A stretch of 54,131 nucleotides of DNA from Gemmatimonadota bacterium (GTDB taxonomy: Bacteria > JAAXHH01), in assembly GCA_026706345.1 (NCBI GenBank), contig JAPOYX010000198.1:125575-179705 (forward strand). Reading direction: 5' to 3'. How positions within the stretch are numbered: the first letter of the stretch is position 1; every line of letters begins with the position of its first letter. Position numbers and translations under genes: made by a program. Of the stretch, positions 34,094-43,131 are shown in pieces. The notes below the pieces were generated by a model that did not search any database, was not told the origin of the DNA, and worked only from the letters and a program-made list of their open reading frames with translations.

Positions 34094-35162
34094 GGTACGC
34101 GTCGACCAGGCATTGCATCTTCAGCCGCCAGTAGTCCCGCGTACTCCCGTTCTGCTGATCCCAGACGGGAAGTTCGACCCGCCAGATAAGCTGCAGGCGG
34201 TAATCCCCGCAGAGATCATCCCACGAATAATTTTTAACACCGCGCTTCACCAGCGACTCGTAGTATCGCGTCAAGCATCGTGTTTCCCGGTCGTTTTCCT
34301 GTCTCTGTTCACGCGTCCAGAACGTCGCGATCAGGTATACCAGATCTTCCGCGCCCAGGCAGACGCACACCTCCTCCATATCCGACAGGTAGGTGCCATG
34401 AACCTCCGGGTCGTCGGGACAGAGGAACTGGGTGAAGTAACAATCCGAGTGACACGCCGTGAACTGTGAGAAGCAGTCGAATCTGTGTTTCAGATACCGA
34501 TCCCACAGCGTGGGCAGCGCTTCTATCCGCCTTTCGTACAACTTGATCAGTTCGCGTGGCAGTTCGCCACCCGCCGTCTTTCTGAACCGCCTCCATTCCT
34601 CGGTCTGGCAACGCACCTCCGTCATATACCGTTCCTCATCCCTGAACGGCGGCGGGATCCTCACGGGGCCGTCCCTCAGAGCCGAATGCTCCCACCAGTA
34701 AGCATGGAGCCCGGCCAGGGCATCCACGCAACCGGCCAGTTCCTCTTCCTCCGGCACGCCGTCTCCAGCCAGGATGCGCTCGCGAGAGACGGGGGCATGG
34801 TGCGTCCCGGAGACGTCGAGCATCAGGCAATGCGAAACACCCGTTTCCTTGTCGTACGCGCCGTCTATAAGCGGAATCAACATGGACGGCGGCGGCTTCT
34901 GCCCCGTTACGAGGCGATAGAACGCGACTTCATCCCGCCCCCAGTGATTCTGCTTGATCTTGATGAACAAGCGCTCCGGAACATCCGCCGGTGCATCCTC
35001 GGAATACACCGGTTCCAAGTGCGCCGCGACCGAATTGAATGCGGGATTGGGATGGAACTTAACGTCCAGGATCCGTCCCTGTCCCAGCAGGCCATTTCGG
35101 CGGAATATGGAGGTCAGCAGTTCGGGGGTGACCGAATCCAGCGACGAGATAACGTCAGGCAT
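34065..35162 (-). CDS. Kinase-fold (APH/CHK-like) protein with altered catalytic loop
   Basis: A 365-residue protein resembling aminoglycoside/choline-type phosphotransferases. It has FIKIKQ as the probable nucleotide-binding lysine strand, CHSDCYFTQFL where HGDxxxxN is expected, and YLSDMEEV in place of the metal aspartate segment. The catalytic aspartate is kept, but the asparagine that binds the second metal is glutamine, so activity or specificity may differ. The start at 35162 gives an eight-base overlap with pyrD; the longer frame begins inside the pyrD tail. No strong ribosome-binding site is seen, so translation may depend on coupling. Substrate unknown. Confidence 0.6.
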   Translation of the reverse strand: MPDVISSLDSVTPELLTSIFRRNGLLGQGRILDVKFHPNPAFNSVAAHLEPVYSEDAPADVPERLFIKIKQNHWGRDEVAFYRLVTGQKPPPSMLIPLIDGAYDKETGVSHCLMLDVSGTHHAPVSRERILAGDGVPEEEELAGCVDALAGLHAYWWEHSALRDGPVRIPPPFRDEERYMTEVRCQTEEWRRFRKTAGGELPRELIKLYERRIEALPTLWDRYLKHRFDCFSQFTACHSDCYFTQFLCPDDPEVHGTYLSDMEEVCVCLGAEDLVYLIATFWTREQRQENDRETRCLTRYYESLVKRGVKNYSWDDLCGDYRLQLIWRVELPVWDQQNGSTRDYWRLKMQCLVDAYRDWDCATLL

Positions 35163-36330
35163 CGACGGCTCTCTGCGGATTTCGCGGATTACGCGGGTTT
35201 CGCGGATGCGGATTGTCCACGCCCACGGCATCGGAAATCCGGCTCAGGCCATCCCGCGCCAGCAGGCGGCACAGACCCCGGTTGATGCGCTTTACCAGAC
35301 CCGGACCATGATAAATCAGCGATGTGTACAATTGTACAATAGTAGCGCCCAGGCGGATCTTCTCGTAGACGTCCTCGGCGTTGAATATGCCGCCCGTACC
35401 CACGATCACGTGGCGGCTGTGATCCATCCGCGGATACCAGGCCCGGATTGACGCGTCGATCAGACCCCGGACAGGCCGTCCGCAGAGCGTCCCGGGCATG
35501 GCGTCGAGCAGGCGTTGCGGGGACTTCAGACCGGCATAGGGTTTTCCCGTCGGCAGCCCGAAAACGATCCCTTTTACGAAGGGGAATGGATCCATGGCCG
35601 CGAGCGTCCCTTCAATGGCGCCGGGATCGGTCGTAGGCACCACCTTGAGGAACGTGGGCGGCATGGCGTCGTACCGGGCGTATCCAGCGAGCAACGACCG
35701 CAAGGTGCCCGGATCGTCGAAGGGACTCCGACCAGACGCGGTATTGGGGCAGTTCAGATTGAGCGTCACGTAATCGGCGAGGCCGAGGAAGGGTTGCACC
35801 GCCGCGACCAGTTCTTCCACCACCTTGTCCGTGGCCGCCGGCCTCCCGGTGTTCGTTTCGACCAGGTTGATGCCGAGGGGGACGGGCAGCCTGGACGGTC
35901 CGGGCGGTCCGGGCGGTCCGGCGGATGCGAACCGCCGGGCCACCGCTTCCGCGCCGTCGTTGGGCACCCCGTAGTTGACCACGATCGCCTCGTCCTCCGG
36001 CACCCGGAACAGTCTCGGGCGTCCGGGATTGCCGGCCGACGGATACGCCGAGACCGAGCCGACCTCCACGAATCCGAATCCGGCCGCCGCGAGTCCCTCT
36101 ATGGCGACCCCGTTCTTGTCGAACCCGGCGGCCAGACCGACCGGATTGGGGAAGACGAGTCCTCCCGCTTCCATCCTGAGCCGCGGGTCATCCGAGGCGA
36201 ACAGGCTCCGGAGCAGACCGCGAACGGGCGGAATGCGTCCCGCCGCGCCGACCGCGGACAGCGTGGCGCGATGAATCCACTCGGGATCCACGCTGAAGAA
36301 TACGGGGCGAAGGAGGCGGTAGAGCGACAT
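35155..36330 (-). CDS. pyrD: Dihydroorotate dehydrogenase (quinone), class 2
   Basis: A 391-residue membrane-associated flavoenzyme of pyrimidine synthesis. It has PVGLAAGFDKNG (FMN site), GINLVETNTGRPA, TLNLNCPNTASGRSP and IVGTGGIFNAEDVYEKI (phosphate site). The N-terminal helix with FFSVDPEWIHR is the quinone-binding extension of class 2 enzymes. The C-terminal tail after about residue 372 is a low-complexity RNP-rich repeat not found in typical PyrD. A GPPGPPGP stretch near residue 145 is another slippage-type insert. The downstream kinase-like gene overlaps by eight bases. A structured leader precedes it. Confidence 0.95.
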   Translation of the reverse strand: MSLYRLLRPVFFSVDPEWIHRATLSAVGAAGRIPPVRGLLRSLFASDDPRLRMEAGGLVFPNPVGLAAGFDKNGVAIEGLAAAGFGFVEVGSVSAYPSAGNPGRPRLFRVPEDEAIVVNYGVPNDGAEAVARRFASAGPPGPPGPSRLPVPLGINLVETNTGRPAATDKVVEELVAAVQPFLGLADYVTLNLNCPNTASGRSPFDDPGTLRSLLAGYARYDAMPPTFLKVVPTTDPGAIEGTLAAMDPFPFVKGIVFGLPTGKPYAGLKSPQRLLDAMPGTLCGRPVRGLIDASIRAWYPRMDHSRHVIVGTGGIFNAEDVYEKIRLGATIVQLYTSLIYHGPGLVKRINRGLCRLLARDGLSRISDAVGVDNPHPRNPRNPRNPQRAVDA

Positions 36331-36411: not shown

Positions 36412-36450
36412 AAAAAAAACCGGGCGCCTCGCACAGGGCAAGGCACCCGG
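36412..36450 (-). terminator. Rho-independent terminator ahead of pyrD
   Basis: On the minus strand a nine-base-pair GC-rich stem (36442-36450 with 36420-36428, one G-U pair, 13-base loop) is followed by eight T residues. It lies about 80 bases before the pyrD start and downstream of a minicistron. It either ends the enolase-family transcript or acts as an attenuator for pyrD. Confidence 0.8.
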
Positions 36451-36481
36451 CTTGCGTCTGGAGGAATGTCAACTGATCAGA

Positions 36482-36514
36482 TCAGTCGTCACACCTCCGT
36501 TGTTTAGATATCAT
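36482..36514 (-). CDS. Ten-codon minicistron (possible leader peptide)
   Basis: An ATG with an excellent AAAGGAGG four bases upstream opens a frame reading MISKQRRCDD and then TGA. A 13-base palindrome (CTGATC-A-GATCAG, 36473-36485) overlaps its stop. The terminator begins about 30 bases later. The layout resembles a leader peptide of an attenuator, but the peptide shows no obvious regulatory codon run besides two arginines and two aspartates. Confidence 0.4.
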   Translation of the reverse strand: MISKQRRCDD

Positions 36515-36581
36515 ACTTCCTCCTTTCTTTTGCGCCGCCGTGCTGCAGTACGGGACGCGGTCCATGCCGATGCATCAACAT

Positions 36582-36625
36582 GCCGGACATGATCCGGCGT
36601 CAAATCCCCGCGACAGCCGGGGATT
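36582..36625 (-). promoter_or_regulatory. Two perfect hairpins in the pyrD-side leader
   Basis: GCCGGA-CATGA-TCCGGC (36582-36598) and AATCCCCG-7-CGGGGATT (36603-36625) are perfect stem-loops a few bases apart. With the minicistron and terminator they suggest a structured RNA on the minus strand. The rest of the 36331-36823 gap holds no supported gene; the region next to 36824 is repeats. Confidence 0.4.
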
Positions 36626-36770
36626 AAATCCGCAAGTCCTATTGTCTCATCAAGATACGGAAATCCGAAAGGCCTCCTGAGATTCCACGGGAGCGGATGC
36701 AGTTTTACGGGTTCGCCACCCAATTTCGGCACACAGGCCATCTACATATACGTGGGCTATCTACACGTAC

Positions 36771-36848
36771 GCCGGTTTCAATGCCGCGTGGCGCCGCGTG
36801 CCGGTCTCAATGCCGCGTCCAAGTCAAACGTACTCCGGTTTCAGCGCG
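36771..36848. repeat. Short direct repeats around the 3' end of the enolase-family gene
   Basis: GCCGGTTTCAATGCCGCGT at 36771-36789 recurs at 36800-36818 with one mismatch. A shorter copy (TCCGGTTTCAGCGCG) sits at 36834-36848 inside the last codons of the gene. An additional pair, ATCTACATATACGT / ATCTACACGTACG, lies just outside at about 36740-36772. Confidence 0.6.
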
Positions 36849-37975: not shown

Positions 37976-38049
37976 TGGGCGCTAGTGGGATCGAACCACT
38001 GACCTCCACGATGTCAACGTGGCACTCTAACCATCTGAGCTAAGCGCCC
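37976..38049 (-). tRNA. tRNA-Val (anticodon GAC)
   Basis: A full cloverleaf on the minus strand. The acceptor stem GGGCGCT pairs with AGCGCCC, D-stem GCTC/GAGT, anticodon stem CCACG/CGTGG with loop TTGACAT, and T-arm AGTGG-TTCGATC-CCACT. The anticodon GAC reads valine codons. The discriminator base is A and CCA is not encoded. Confidence 0.95.
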
Positions 38050-38088: not shown

Positions 38089-38175
38089 TGCCGAGGGCCG
38101 GACTCGAACCGGCACGGACTATTGAGGTCCGGGAGATTTTAAGTCTCCTGTGTCTACCAATTCCACCACCCCGGC
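38089..38175 (-). tRNA. tRNA-Leu (anticodon UAA)
   Basis: An 87-base class II tRNA on the minus strand. The acceptor stem is GCCGGGG/CCTCGGC, anticodon stem GGAGA/TCTCC with loop CTTAAAA (anticodon TAA), a long variable arm CGGAC-CTCAATA-GTCCG, and T-arm GCCGG-TTCGAGT-CCGGC. The discriminator base is A and CCA is not encoded. It lies 39 bases upstream of the valine tRNA and is probably co-transcribed. Confidence 0.95.
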
Positions 38176-39650: not shown

Positions 39651-39923
39651 TTAGCCTATGGCGTCTTTTAAAGCCTTGCCCGCCGTAAACTTGGCCACGT
39701 TTCTCGCCGCGATCGTAATGGACTCGCCCGTACCGGGATTTCGCCCCTGGCGAGCAGCACGCTTCGATACGCTGAACGTGCCGAAGCCGATCAGCGTGAC
39801 GGAATCGCCGTCACTGAGACTGCTTTTGATGGCGTCGAGTGCAGCGGCGACTGCGCTATCGGCCTGTGCCTTGGACAACCCGGTAGCATCAGCAACCTTA
39901 CCGGCCAATTCTGTGCGATTCAT
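39651..39923 (-). CDS. HU-family nucleoid DNA-binding protein
   Basis: A 90-residue histone-like protein. It begins MNRTELAGKVADATGLSK and has the conserved core VTLIGFGTFSV, the DNA-arm proline in GRNPGTGE and the C-terminal FTAGKALKDAI. It should bind and bend DNA as a dimer. GGAGGGTAATCA gives a strong ribosome-binding site. It is a single-gene unit between its own promoter and a perfect hairpin. It does not look horizontally acquired. Confidence 0.97.
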   Translation of the reverse strand: MNRTELAGKVADATGLSKAQADSAVAAALDAIKSSLSDGDSVTLIGFGTFSVSKRAARQGRNPGTGESITIAARNVAKFTAGKALKDAIG

Positions 39924-40163: not shown

Positions 40164-41459
40164 ATGCCTGATCAGCCTCCGCCTAAAACAGTCCTGCTCC
40201 TGATGCCGACGACGACCTACCGGGCCGGTCCCTTTCTGGACGCCGCCCGCCGGATGAACCTGGAAGTCGTCATGGGCTCAGACTTCTGCCACGTGCTGGC
40301 GGAAGAATGGGACATCCCGCTTTCGCTGCGATTCAGGCACGTGTCCCAGGCGGTGGAGGATATCGTGTCCTTCGCCCGCGGCCAGGCTCTCGACGCCATC
40401 ATACCGGTCGACGACTATACGACCGAGATCGCGGCCAGGGCGTGCCAGGCCCTCGGCATTCCGCACAACACGCCCGAAGCGGCCGTTGCGGCGCGTAACA
40501 AGCACCGCATGCGCGAAATGCTCTCCGCGGCCGGGGAATGGTGTCCGTATTTCGCTCGCTTCGACGTGACGGTCCCCGTCGAGGAAATCGCGCTGGAGCA
40601 GCCCTATCCGTGTGTGCTTAAGCCTGTCCTGCTTTCGGGCAGCCGGGGCGTCATCCGGGCCGATTCACCCGCGGAGTTCATAGAGGCCTTTAATCGAATA
40701 GGCCGCATGCTCGGCAGGGCGTCGGACAGACCGCCCGACCTGGACCCCGACGCCAACCGCATCATGGTGGAATCCTATATTCCGGGCGCAGAGGTGGCCC
40801 TGGAGGGCCTGTTGACCGGCGGCCGCCTGCGTGTGCTCGCGCTTTTCGATAAACCGGATCCGCTGGAAGGCCCCTTTTTCGAAGAGACGATTTACGTGAC
40901 GCCTTCGCGTTTGCCCGAAGCGACGCAACACATCGTGTCCGAAGCCGTTCAGCGGGCTTCCGCGGCCGTGGGTCTCTCGGAGGGACCCGTCCATGCCGAG
41001 CTGCGGGTCCGCCACGGCAGGGCCCGGATGATTGAAATCGCCGGCCGGTCCATCGGGGGCCTGTGCTCGCGGATCCTGGAATACGGACTCGGGGTAAGCC
41101 TGGAGGAACTCATCCTGCGTCACGCGCTGGGCGAAGACGTGGACGGTATCAACGGCGGGACGGTGGGTTTCGACAGGGCGGAAACCGGTACGAAGGCCGC
41201 GGGCGTGATGATGCTGCCCGTGCCGGAAGGCGGACTGTTCCAGGGATATGACGGCGTGGACGCGGCGAAGAAGGTCCGGGGCGTGGAGGACGTGGTCATC
41301 ACCGCCAGGGAAGGCGACATGCTGACCCCGTTGCCGGAAGGCGCCAGCTATCCTGGTTTCATCTTTGCGAAAGGGGACGAGCCCGGCCAGGTGGAGCAGG
41401 TGCTGCGAAAGGCCCATGGCCGGCTGCACATGCGCGTCAAAACGGTCCTGTCCACGTGA
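40164..41459 (+). CDS. ATP-grasp family ligase
   Basis: A 431-residue ATP-grasp enzyme. The N-terminal pre-ATP-grasp part (KTVLLLMPTTTYRAGPFLDAA) is followed by YPCVLKPVLLSGSRGV, the ATP-lysine and glycine-rich loop. MVESYIPGAEVALEG and the metal-binding segment HAELRVRHGRARMIEIAGRS follow (quoted in part). It resembles carboxylate-amine/dipeptide ligases of the BacD or CPS-large-subunit type. The ATG at 40164 is chosen because the longer frame adds an unconserved 46 residues. The substrates cannot be told, and no biosynthetic partner is adjacent. Confidence 0.85.
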   Translation: MPDQPPPKTVLLLMPTTTYRAGPFLDAARRMNLEVVMGSDFCHVLAEEWDIPLSLRFRHVSQAVEDIVSFARGQALDAIIPVDDYTTEIAARACQALGIPHNTPEAAVAARNKHRMREMLSAAGEWCPYFARFDVTVPVEEIALEQPYPCVLKPVLLSGSRGVIRADSPAEFIEAFNRIGRMLGRASDRPPDLDPDANRIMVESYIPGAEVALEGLLTGGRLRVLALFDKPDPLEGPFFEETIYVTPSRLPEATQHIVSEAVQRASAAVGLSEGPVHAELRVRHGRARMIEIAGRSIGGLCSRILEYGLGVSLEELILRHALGEDVDGINGGTVGFDRAETGTKAAGVMMLPVPEGGLFQGYDGVDAAKKVRGVEDVVITAREGDMLTPLPEGASYPGFIFAKGDEPGQVEQVLRKAHGRLHMRVKTVLST

Positions 41460-41637
41460 GAGAAAAGGCCTTCTCGGCTTGGCTTCACGGCAATCTGCAT
41501 GACTCTGGCGCGCGGCAACGGCGGAAGGACCAGGGAAGGCTTTTATGCGCCGTTTCGGGACTTGAGGATTTCAGGACCTGGACAAAACGGAAGGTGAACC
41601 ACCCGAACCAAAAGAACTAAAAAGGGAGATGAGCACC

Positions 41638-43131
41638 GTGTCAAAGCACTACGAGCGGGTTATGGAGATCTACCGGGAGGTAAGCGACCTGCGCGGGGCC
41701 GCGGCCCTGATGGGGTGGGACCAGGAGACCTATATGCCCCCCAGGGGCGCCGCCACGCGGGGCCGGCAGCTTGCCACCATTTCCGGCTTGATCCATGAGC
41801 GGATTACATCCGACGAAATGCGCGGAGCCCTGGGCGAGGCCCGTTCGGAATCCCTGGCACCCGACCAAGAGGTCAACATCCGCGAAATCGCGCGGGACAG
41901 CGACCGCGCGGTCAGGATCCCCGTCACCCTGGTCAAGGCGCTGGCGGAAACGAGTTCGGCCGCCATAGGCGTCTGGATCAAGGCCCGGCAGGAAGACGAT
42001 TTCAAGGCTTTTGCGCCGTGGGTCGCCAGGCTGGTCGACCTCCAGCGCCAGACCGCCGAGGCGGTCGGATACGAAGACGAACCCTACGACGCGCTGCTCG
42101 ACGAATACGAACCCGGCGCCACTACGAAAGAAACCGCTGCGGTCCTGGATTCGATCCGCGCTCCCCTCGTCGACCTGGTGCAACGCATCGGATCGTCGGG
42201 CGTCGAACCCCGTACCGACTTCCTGGAAAGAGACTACACCATCGACGATCAACGGCGCATGGGCGTCATGGCGGCCGAACGCATGGGCTTCGACTTCGAG
42301 TCGGGCCGTTTGGACATATCCCCCCATCCGTTCTGCACGCACCTGGGCGTGAACGACGTCCGGATGACGACGCGGTACGCCGAAAACCTGCCCATGCAGT
42401 CCTTCTACGGCGTGATCCACGAAGCGGGGCACGGTCTCTACGAACAGGGGCAGGACCCGGCGCACGAGGGCACGCCCCGGGGCGCGTCGGTATCCCTCGG
42501 CATCCACGAATCCCAGTCGCGCCTGTGGGAGAACATGGTCGGCCGGAGCCGGGCTTTCTGGCAGTACTTCTACCCCGAATTCGCCGCCGTCTTTCCCGAT
42601 CAGACCGCGGATGTGAGCGAAGCAGAAATCTATGCCGCGGTGAACGAAGTAAAACCTTCACTCATCCGGGTCGAAGCGGATGAAATCACCTACAACCTGC
42701 ACATCCTGCTCCGGTTCGAAATAGAGCGCGGCCTGTTCGCGGACGAATACGCGGCCGGCGATCTCCCCGCGGTCTGGAACGAGAAGATGAAAGCGTTCCT
42801 CGGTATCGAGCCGCCCGACGACAAGGACGGCGTGCTGCAGGATATCCACTGGTCGCACGGCAGCTTCGGATATTTCCCCACCTATACCCTGGGCAATCTA
42901 TACGCCGCCCAGTTCTACCGCGCCGCCGAACGCGACATGCCCGGCCTGTCGGACCAGGTCGCCCGCGGAGAGCTGCTGCCGCTGCGGGACTGGCTCAAGG
43001 AGAACATCCACCTGCCCGGGATGACCTACCGCGCCGGAGATCTTGTGCGGCACGTGACTGGAGAGCCGCTCACCGCGGACTGTTTCCTGACCTACATCCA
43101 CGACAAGTACAGCGCGCTCTACAGTCTATGA
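41638..43131 (+). CDS. Metallocarboxypeptidase M32 (Taq family)
   Basis: A 497-residue zinc carboxypeptidase. The HEAGH motif is encoded at 42418-42432, preceded by MQSFYGVI and followed by GIHESQSRLWENMVG with the glutamate ligand. GSFGYFPTYTLGNLYAAQ is the family signature near the C-terminus. The start is judged from the ribosome-binding site: GGGAG at 41624-41628 touches the ATG at 41629 directly but stands nine bases from the GTG at 41638, which is therefore preferred. The enzyme trims C-terminal residues from peptides in the cytosol. The next gene overlaps its stop by four bases. Confidence 0.92.
   Translation: MSKHYERVMEIYREVSDLRGAAALMGWDQETYMPPRGAATRGRQLATISGLIHERITSDEMRGALGEARSESLAPDQEVNIREIARDSDRAVRIPVTLVKALAETSSAAIGVWIKARQEDDFKAFAPWVARLVDLQRQTAEAVGYEDEPYDALLDEYEPGATTKETAAVLDSIRAPLVDLVQRIGSSGVEPRTDFLERDYTIDDQRRMGVMAAERMGFDFESGRLDISPHPFCTHLGVNDVRMTTRYAENLPMQSFYGVIHEAGHGLYEQGQDPAHEGTPRGASVSLGIHESQSRLWENMVGRSRAFWQYFYPEFAAVFPDQTADVSEAEIYAAVNEVKPSLIRVEADEITYNLHILLRFEIERGLFADEYAAGDLPAVWNEKMKAFLGIEPPDDKDGVLQDIHWSHGSFGYFPTYTLGNLYAAQFYRAAERDMPGLSDQVARGELLPLRDWLKENIHLPGMTYRAGDLVRHVTGEPLTADCFLTYIHDKYSALYSL

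Follow-up and report, generated by a model that had tools for sequence, protein, structure and literature searches.

The window, that is, the whole 54,131-nucleotide stretch of Gemmatimonadota DNA analyzed here, carries on its minus strand, at 36640-36412, a structured element that is conserved as a unit, with covarying stems, a ten-codon reading frame whose start, length and stop are kept, and neighboring genes that change between lineages. It may be a separate conserved gene for a terminated, stand-alone small RNA that acts in trans and whose stop-codon hairpin is opened by ribosomes, a reading to which we give about an even chance.

Anatomy of the element

A sequence-only reading of the window had described two perfect hairpins, a strong Shine-Dalgarno sequence with a ten-codon frame, a 13-base palindrome across the stop codon, and a terminator stem with eight U residues ahead of pyrD. 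All of these features are present (Table 1), and two hairpins absent from that list, P4 and P5, can be added. The frame (36514-36482) reads ATG ATA TCT AAA CAA CGG AGG TGT GAC GAC TGA. The palindrome, CTGATC-T-GATCAG, overlaps the stop and forms the top of the longer stem P6, the arms of which are 79% complementary. A terminator scan places a 16-pair stem at 36417-36453, with eight T residues that end at 36412. The loop of P4 reads UGCA, with UUAA in genome G013 and UGAA in G015; hairpin 1 contains one pair with changes on both sides, found in six sequences. The possible closing stem P1 has slight compensatory support and is weak beyond the genus. The same-strand RNA of 36642-36410 folds at -104.3 kcal/mol compared with -79.8 +/- 4.7 kcal/mol for 200 dinucleotide shuffles, none of which reaches as low (z -5.26).

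Table 1. Features of the element and its surroundings in window coordinates
Feature	Position	Strand	Basis or remark
Conserved upstream block TGCATCCGCTCCCGTGGAATCTCAGG	36676..36701	-	probable promoter or regulatory region
Possible closing stem P1, 5' strand CUUGCG	36631..36636	-	minimum-energy fold
Hairpin 1 (AATCCCCG/CGGGGATT)	36603..36625	-	8-nt perfect arms, 36603-36610 and 36618-36625; RNA fold
Hairpin P3 (GCCGGA/TCCGGC)	36582..36598	-	folds and alignment; nearly invariant
Hairpin P4, 5-pair stem, UNNA loop	36566..36579	-	five positions all paired in 13/13 sequences
Hairpin P5	36532..36558	-	4 pairs with both-side changes
Shine-Dalgarno AAAGGAGG	36519..36526	-	in 14/14 copies of the window's phylum
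Ten-codon frame MISKQRRCDD*, UGA stop	36482..36514	-	sequence read directly
Stem P6, from codon 6 (internal GGAGGUG), stop codon enclosed	36460..36498	-	
Possible P1, 3' strand CGCAAG	36451..36456	-	minimum-energy fold
Intrinsic terminator and U run	36412..36453	-	terminator scan
pyrD (dihydroorotate dehydrogenase; DHO_dh, 4e-46)	35155..36330	-	outside the element; neighbor in this genus only

Elsewhere in the window, the minus strand carries genes for tRNA-Val (GAC; 37976-38049) and tRNA-Leu (TAA; 38089-38175), and a 90-codon frame at 39651-39923 that may encode an HU-type DNA-binding protein.

Conservation and covariation

The window's own genome holds a single copy of the element, and a repeat or mobile element was rejected on this count. 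A DNA search of 59 genomes recovers it in 13, comprising all 12 of genus g1 and G013, which belongs to another genus of the same family. A covariance model, R1, adds G015 from a different family (63.6 bits, E 4e-16), so that 14 of the 16 genomes of the window's phylum contain the element, in one copy each. The remaining two, G012 (99% complete) and G014 (83%), give no match by R1, R2 (E up to 10) or R3; both carry the gene for the sigma-region-4-like regulator discussed below despite the missing match.

Alignment A3 comprises 13 of the 14 copies (L009 was left out; G015 is off register by one in P3). Its structure has 47 pairs arranged in five helices, and 97.5% of the cells hold standard pairs; shifting the partners by one, two or three columns lowers this to 34-48%. 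Since the counted sequences are also those from which the structure was drawn, this percentage is biased upward, and more weight belongs to the double-sided changes: ten pairs vary on both sides where shuffling predicts 1.9, and none of 500 shuffles reaches ten. Nine of the ten lie in P5 and P6; P6 contributes 16 pairs, of which five have both-side changes, with 98% of cells paired, and the 11-pair terminator stem in A3 is paired in 100% of cells. The G015 copy differs in the letters of both P5 arms and of much of P6, and still folds alike (z -7.8). The element is kept in relatives, as a chance structure would not be. The covariation search proposed with the sequence-only reading thus finds stems and minicistron conserved, and because both are, the lack of conservation that it had named as counter-evidence is not what is seen.

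The pattern of hairpin P3 also occurs in named records assigned to Candidatus Latescibacterota, Gemmatimonadetes, an uncultured bacterium and one member of the Pirellulales. The Pirellulales match (L021, pattern scan) was rejected as a chance hit of one hairpin only, at 12 bits. Matches to R2 in G101 and G035 were likewise set aside, being local and without P6.

Relatives in a second phylum

Over 384 genomes, R2 gives a weak match (E 8e-4) in G054, where the frame MLSNQRRCDT* has a Shine-Dalgarno sequence, its stop is covered by a stem, and a hairpin resembling a terminator is also present (fold z -8.25). We presume that the phylum of G054 is Poribacteria, from the sponge habitat and the adjoining PhyH-like genes. 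A pattern was defined as Shine-Dalgarno, AUG, 13 nt, GGAGGTGT, 6 nt and a stop-like codon; it occurs in 49 of 84 genomes of this phylum, once each and all within one family, while the reversed-pattern control finds 0 matches in the same 84. Over the 384 domain-wide genomes the pattern gives 14 matches: 11 in genus g1, one each in G015 and G054, and a false one in G073, rejected because it ends in TGG and has no stop.

Thirty of the 49 loci were read. They encode MLANQRRCDT or peptides close to it, and the stop is UAG or UAA. Alignment A4, made from 27 of the 30 (L074, L093 and L098 were left out), yields a fold with a like stem over the stop and 53 pairs, five of which have both-side changes, none of them in that stem. 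R3, built from A4 and run on 34 of the 35 pattern-negative genomes (G464 was left out), adds seven further members and a weak one in G394 (E 3e-4), which brings the phylum to at least 56 of 84 genomes, or 57 with G394. Frames of the R3 members have 9, 10 or 11 codons (e.g., MLANQRRCGTH, MLANQRWCDT, MKSPRRCDL and MKFLRWCDR). R3 recovers none of three known copies of the window's phylum (G000, G013 and G015), so that homology across the phyla rests on R2 (E 8e-4), the frame and synteny. In distant families of the second phylum, the 3' hairpin lacks a clear U run.

In G431, G444 and G450 (L164, L165 and L167, starting at about 1500), a 5' module, AAGTGCATCC..GTGTATAAGTGAATCATT or a variant of it, stands before other sequence and lacks the ten-codon frame.

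The ten-codon frame

All 14 copies in the window's phylum contain AAAGGAGG, AUG, ten codons and UGA; the spacer between Shine-Dalgarno and AUG varies from 4 to 10 nt and the frame length is constant. Peptides in this phylum are MISKQRRCDD, MISEQRRCDD, MITKQRRCDG, MISKPRGRED (G005), MNHSQGGCVV (G013) and MKTTNWRCIV (G015). G010 has an additional upstream ATG that is out of frame, and its homologous ATG gives MISEQRRCDD*. In the second phylum the frame runs from 9 to 11 codons through in-frame length changes, ends in UGA, UAG or UAA, and keeps a core R-[R/W]-C-[D/G].

On one alternative, the element mainly encodes a functional peptide, 9-11 residues long and containing this core, and the RNA structure serves only to stabilize or regulate the message. 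Start, length and stop are kept across two phyla while stop type and in-frame length vary, and QRRC is held with different spellings of Gln and Arg (the window has CAA CGG AGG, the second phylum CAG AGG AGG), as is the Cys of G013, written UGC in place of UGU. Against this, codons 2-4 are free to vary, residues 5-10 differ in G013, G015 and G005 (with R for C in G005, and most positions changed in the other two), and the most conserved codons double as the 5' arm of P6, so that pairing could account for their conservation. On balance a peptide gene is unlikely, and because conservation of the peptide is not strict, the frame may matter for folding alone. It is among the shortest conserved reading frames, with its stop codon built into a conserved stem, and this placement makes a coupling between translation and RNA folding directly testable.

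Genomic context and boundaries

All 12 loci of genus g1 have an enolase-family gene upstream, which in the window ends at 36824 (minus strand), and pyrD downstream, starting at 36330. In G013 an acetyltransferase gene precedes the element and a convergent gene follows, presumably for an M24-type peptidase, as judged from its sequence. In G015 it is preceded by two rsgA genes and two acetyltransferase-like genes, the second of which has no Pfam match; an acetyltransferase gene of G015, used as a synteny handle in a run without a positive control, gave 0 of 5 genomes of the window's phylum. In the second phylum, 13 of 30 loci have IF-1 immediately upstream, the same rsgA-acetyltransferase pair as in G015 stands before the element in 8 of 30, and a gene for a small regulator that contains a sigma-70 region 4 domain (Pfam 2.8e-13) lies downstream in 20 of 30 and in all eight further loci. 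Since neighbors differ in G013, G015 and the second phylum, pyrD is not a constant partner, and the changing neighbors imply that there is no fixed cis target. The adjacency to pyrD merely happens in this genus, an example of how a leader reading from one genome can mislead.

Sequence identity sets clear limits to the unit. Over the 66 pairs among the 12 genus copies, the element is 89.5% identical, the 62-63 nt preceding it 83.4% and the first 280 nt of pyrD 85%, compared with 36% for the gap behind the enolase-family gene and 46% for the gap before pyrD. Within the genus, 10-137 nt separate the upstream gene from the conserved block and 80-201 nt separate the U run from pyrD. With such sharp edges, the element looks like a gene of its own rather than a leader or a 3' end. 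Behind the enolase-family gene, positions 36736-36843 contain short imperfect direct repeats, including copies of its last codons.

These observations bear on a second alternative, a translation-dependent attenuator acting in cis on the regulator gene in the second phylum and recruited before pyrD in genus g1. The short frame, the stem over the stop and the terminator all resemble attenuator leaders, and the next gene is the regulator in 28 of the 38 second-phylum loci examined and pyrD in 12 of 12 genus loci. However, no antiterminator pairing is seen in single-sequence or consensus folds, in which the terminator is an independent hairpin in all sequences inspected; the regulator gene owns a second leader with a Shine-Dalgarno sequence and frame; the next gene in G013 is convergent; and the distance to pyrD is variable and its sequence poorly conserved. 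The frame shows no relation to pyrimidines, and there is no constant downstream biosynthetic gene for a sensed residue as in attenuators of the trp/his type. We therefore regard cis attenuation as improbable. The earlier proposal of attenuation or a small RNA ahead of pyrD is borne out for the anatomy and the minicistron; its small-RNA half is favored, and its link to pyrD, the next gene in genus g1 only, is not supported; a small RNA with a translated minicistron appears to fit the sequences better than a pyrD attenuator.

The possibility that the element is simply the 3' end or terminator of the upstream message, enolase-family here and acetyltransferase elsewhere, had also been raised as a counter-reading. 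A same-strand gene does lie upstream in the loci of the window's phylum that were read, and a terminator does close the element. A terminator, however, needs no 230 conserved nucleotides, Shine-Dalgarno sequence or frame; the gap behind the enolase-family gene is 36% identical against 90% for the element, the conserved block begins only after it, and the upstream gene differs by lineage, all of which makes this explanation very improbable. Least credible of all is that the element belongs, as a divergent member, to an RNA family already known. Bacterial families are often poorly modeled beyond their reference phyla, but Rfam at gathering thresholds gives no match to the element, whether in the window, in L013 or in L067, and the best sub-threshold scores, 19.5 bits of 50 needed and 21.2 of 86, are unconvincing. 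As the sequence-only reading had supposed, no known pyrimidine leader is matched; no pyr leader or PyrR-type attenuator is matched in Rfam at the gathering threshold, and no pyr family appears among the sub-threshold matches. A search of the literature on Latescibacter small RNAs and Poribacteria RNA motifs found no description of the element.

The upstream block and a sigma-region-4-like regulator

In all 12 genus loci, TGCATCCGCT forms the start of the unit at a constant 62-63 nt before the element, and the window has this one copy. TGCATCCG is common to the upstream block and to the leader of the sigma-region-4-like gene; the TGCATCCG block is absent from the stretches of G013 and G015 that were read. 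Each of the 16 genomes in the window's phylum has one orthologue of the regulator; in all 14 that also contain the element, the two are on separate contigs. TGCATC occurs 289-392 nt before this helix-turn-helix gene in 16 of 16. In this phylum a conserved leader belonging to the regulator gene comprises the TGCATC motif, a frame and an end resembling a terminator, a design that looks like translation-dependent attenuation. A scan for a regulon with motif AAGTGCATCCG found 1-5 sites per genome in 11 genomes, several of these counts being close to the reversed-pattern control, and no convincing set of sites beyond the regulator leader and the element.

Several further observations were made on these regions. 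In the window's own genome, the frame in the regulator leader (L106; G000 contig C265, about 41251-41978, minus strand) ends in FPSPECCWRSP*, and regulator leaders (L100-L115, including L106) contain repeated CTCCGGAG and an CGCGGTTTTTTT end. In the second phylum (L160-L163, L157 and L159), a second short frame precedes the regulator start codon, and a stem like GGTGCCTCTGCC/GGCATAGGTACC lies just before that codon. In G013 (L137, contig C55 at 11939), the motif AAAAAGTGCATCCG stands shortly before a frame that we assume to encode a branched-chain aminotransferase-like protein.

Proposed function

The preferred reading of the element as a stand-alone gene predicts a discrete transcript, about 230 nt long and closed by the element's own terminator. 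From the established footprint of the ribosome, one that starts at the AUG would halt just short of P6, and reaching the stop would require P6 to be melted. Because reading the frame must open P6, the RNA would report ribosome loading: where ribosomes are scarce, or stalled on the R-[R/W]-C codons, which may be a pause site, P6 and its neighbors could fold differently. Its most likely mode is that of a trans-acting small RNA, perhaps with the peptide taking part; the signal could be passed on by pairing with a target, by binding a protein or by the peptide itself. Several steps here are predicted: that the RNA is transcribed separately, that its frame is translated, that ribosomes open P6, that the RNA acts in trans and that it is linked to the regulator.

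The best candidate partner is the sigma-region-4-like regulator, which often adjoins the element in the second phylum and whose own leader resembles it in design. The recurring neighbors IF-1, RsgA and this regulator point to translation or ribosome control. It is conceivable, if rather doubtful, that a ribosome-loading sensor RNA and the regulator form a previously undescribed two-part circuit in two phyla, as the similar leaders and a TGCATCC motif common to both units near their starts might suggest. If so, the RNA would control the regulator in trans, or the reverse, and expression would be tuned to translation capacity. As a new RNA element it is unusually well supported by comparison across two phyla, which in the named records are represented by metagenome assemblies alone.

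Comparison with known systems

In Sinorhizobium meliloti, the attenuator RNA rnTrpL acts away from its own operon, as is predicted for the element. Unlike the element, it is an attenuator of trp genes with Trp codons and alternative hairpins; the element has no constant biosynthetic operon after it, and no antiterminator was seen. Both rnTrpL and the predicted RNA of the element are short and terminated and contain a tiny frame. The leader peptide of rnTrpL, peTrpL, is reported to act in trans (PMC7298713). A uORF attenuator of a DUF1127 gene in S. meliloti has been proposed to monitor ribosome availability, with translation of the small frame and pairing of the ribosome-binding site sensing ribosome loading (PMC12218461). 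In a similar manner, the Shine-Dalgarno sequence of the element can pair with a downstream CCUCC in some folds of genus g1; the DUF1127 uORF acts in cis on the DUF1127 gene, unlike the role suggested for the element. A Shine-Dalgarno/anti-Shine-Dalgarno switch, in which the 3' arm AUUCCUCC pairs with GGAGGAAU in several genus copies, was considered and rejected, as the pairing is not kept in G013, G015 or the second phylum.

The whiB7 leader of actinobacteria has a frame and a terminator and lies close to a sigma-region-4-linked regulator. Its likeness to the element is one of design, and in the window's phylum the element has no adjacent regulator. SgrS/SgrT and Spot 42/SpfP are small RNAs that also encode a peptide, and they share with the element, whose transcript is predicted, the layout of a discrete terminated RNA with an internal Shine-Dalgarno sequence and frame. 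Compared with both, the frame of the element is shorter and its stop lies within a conserved stem.
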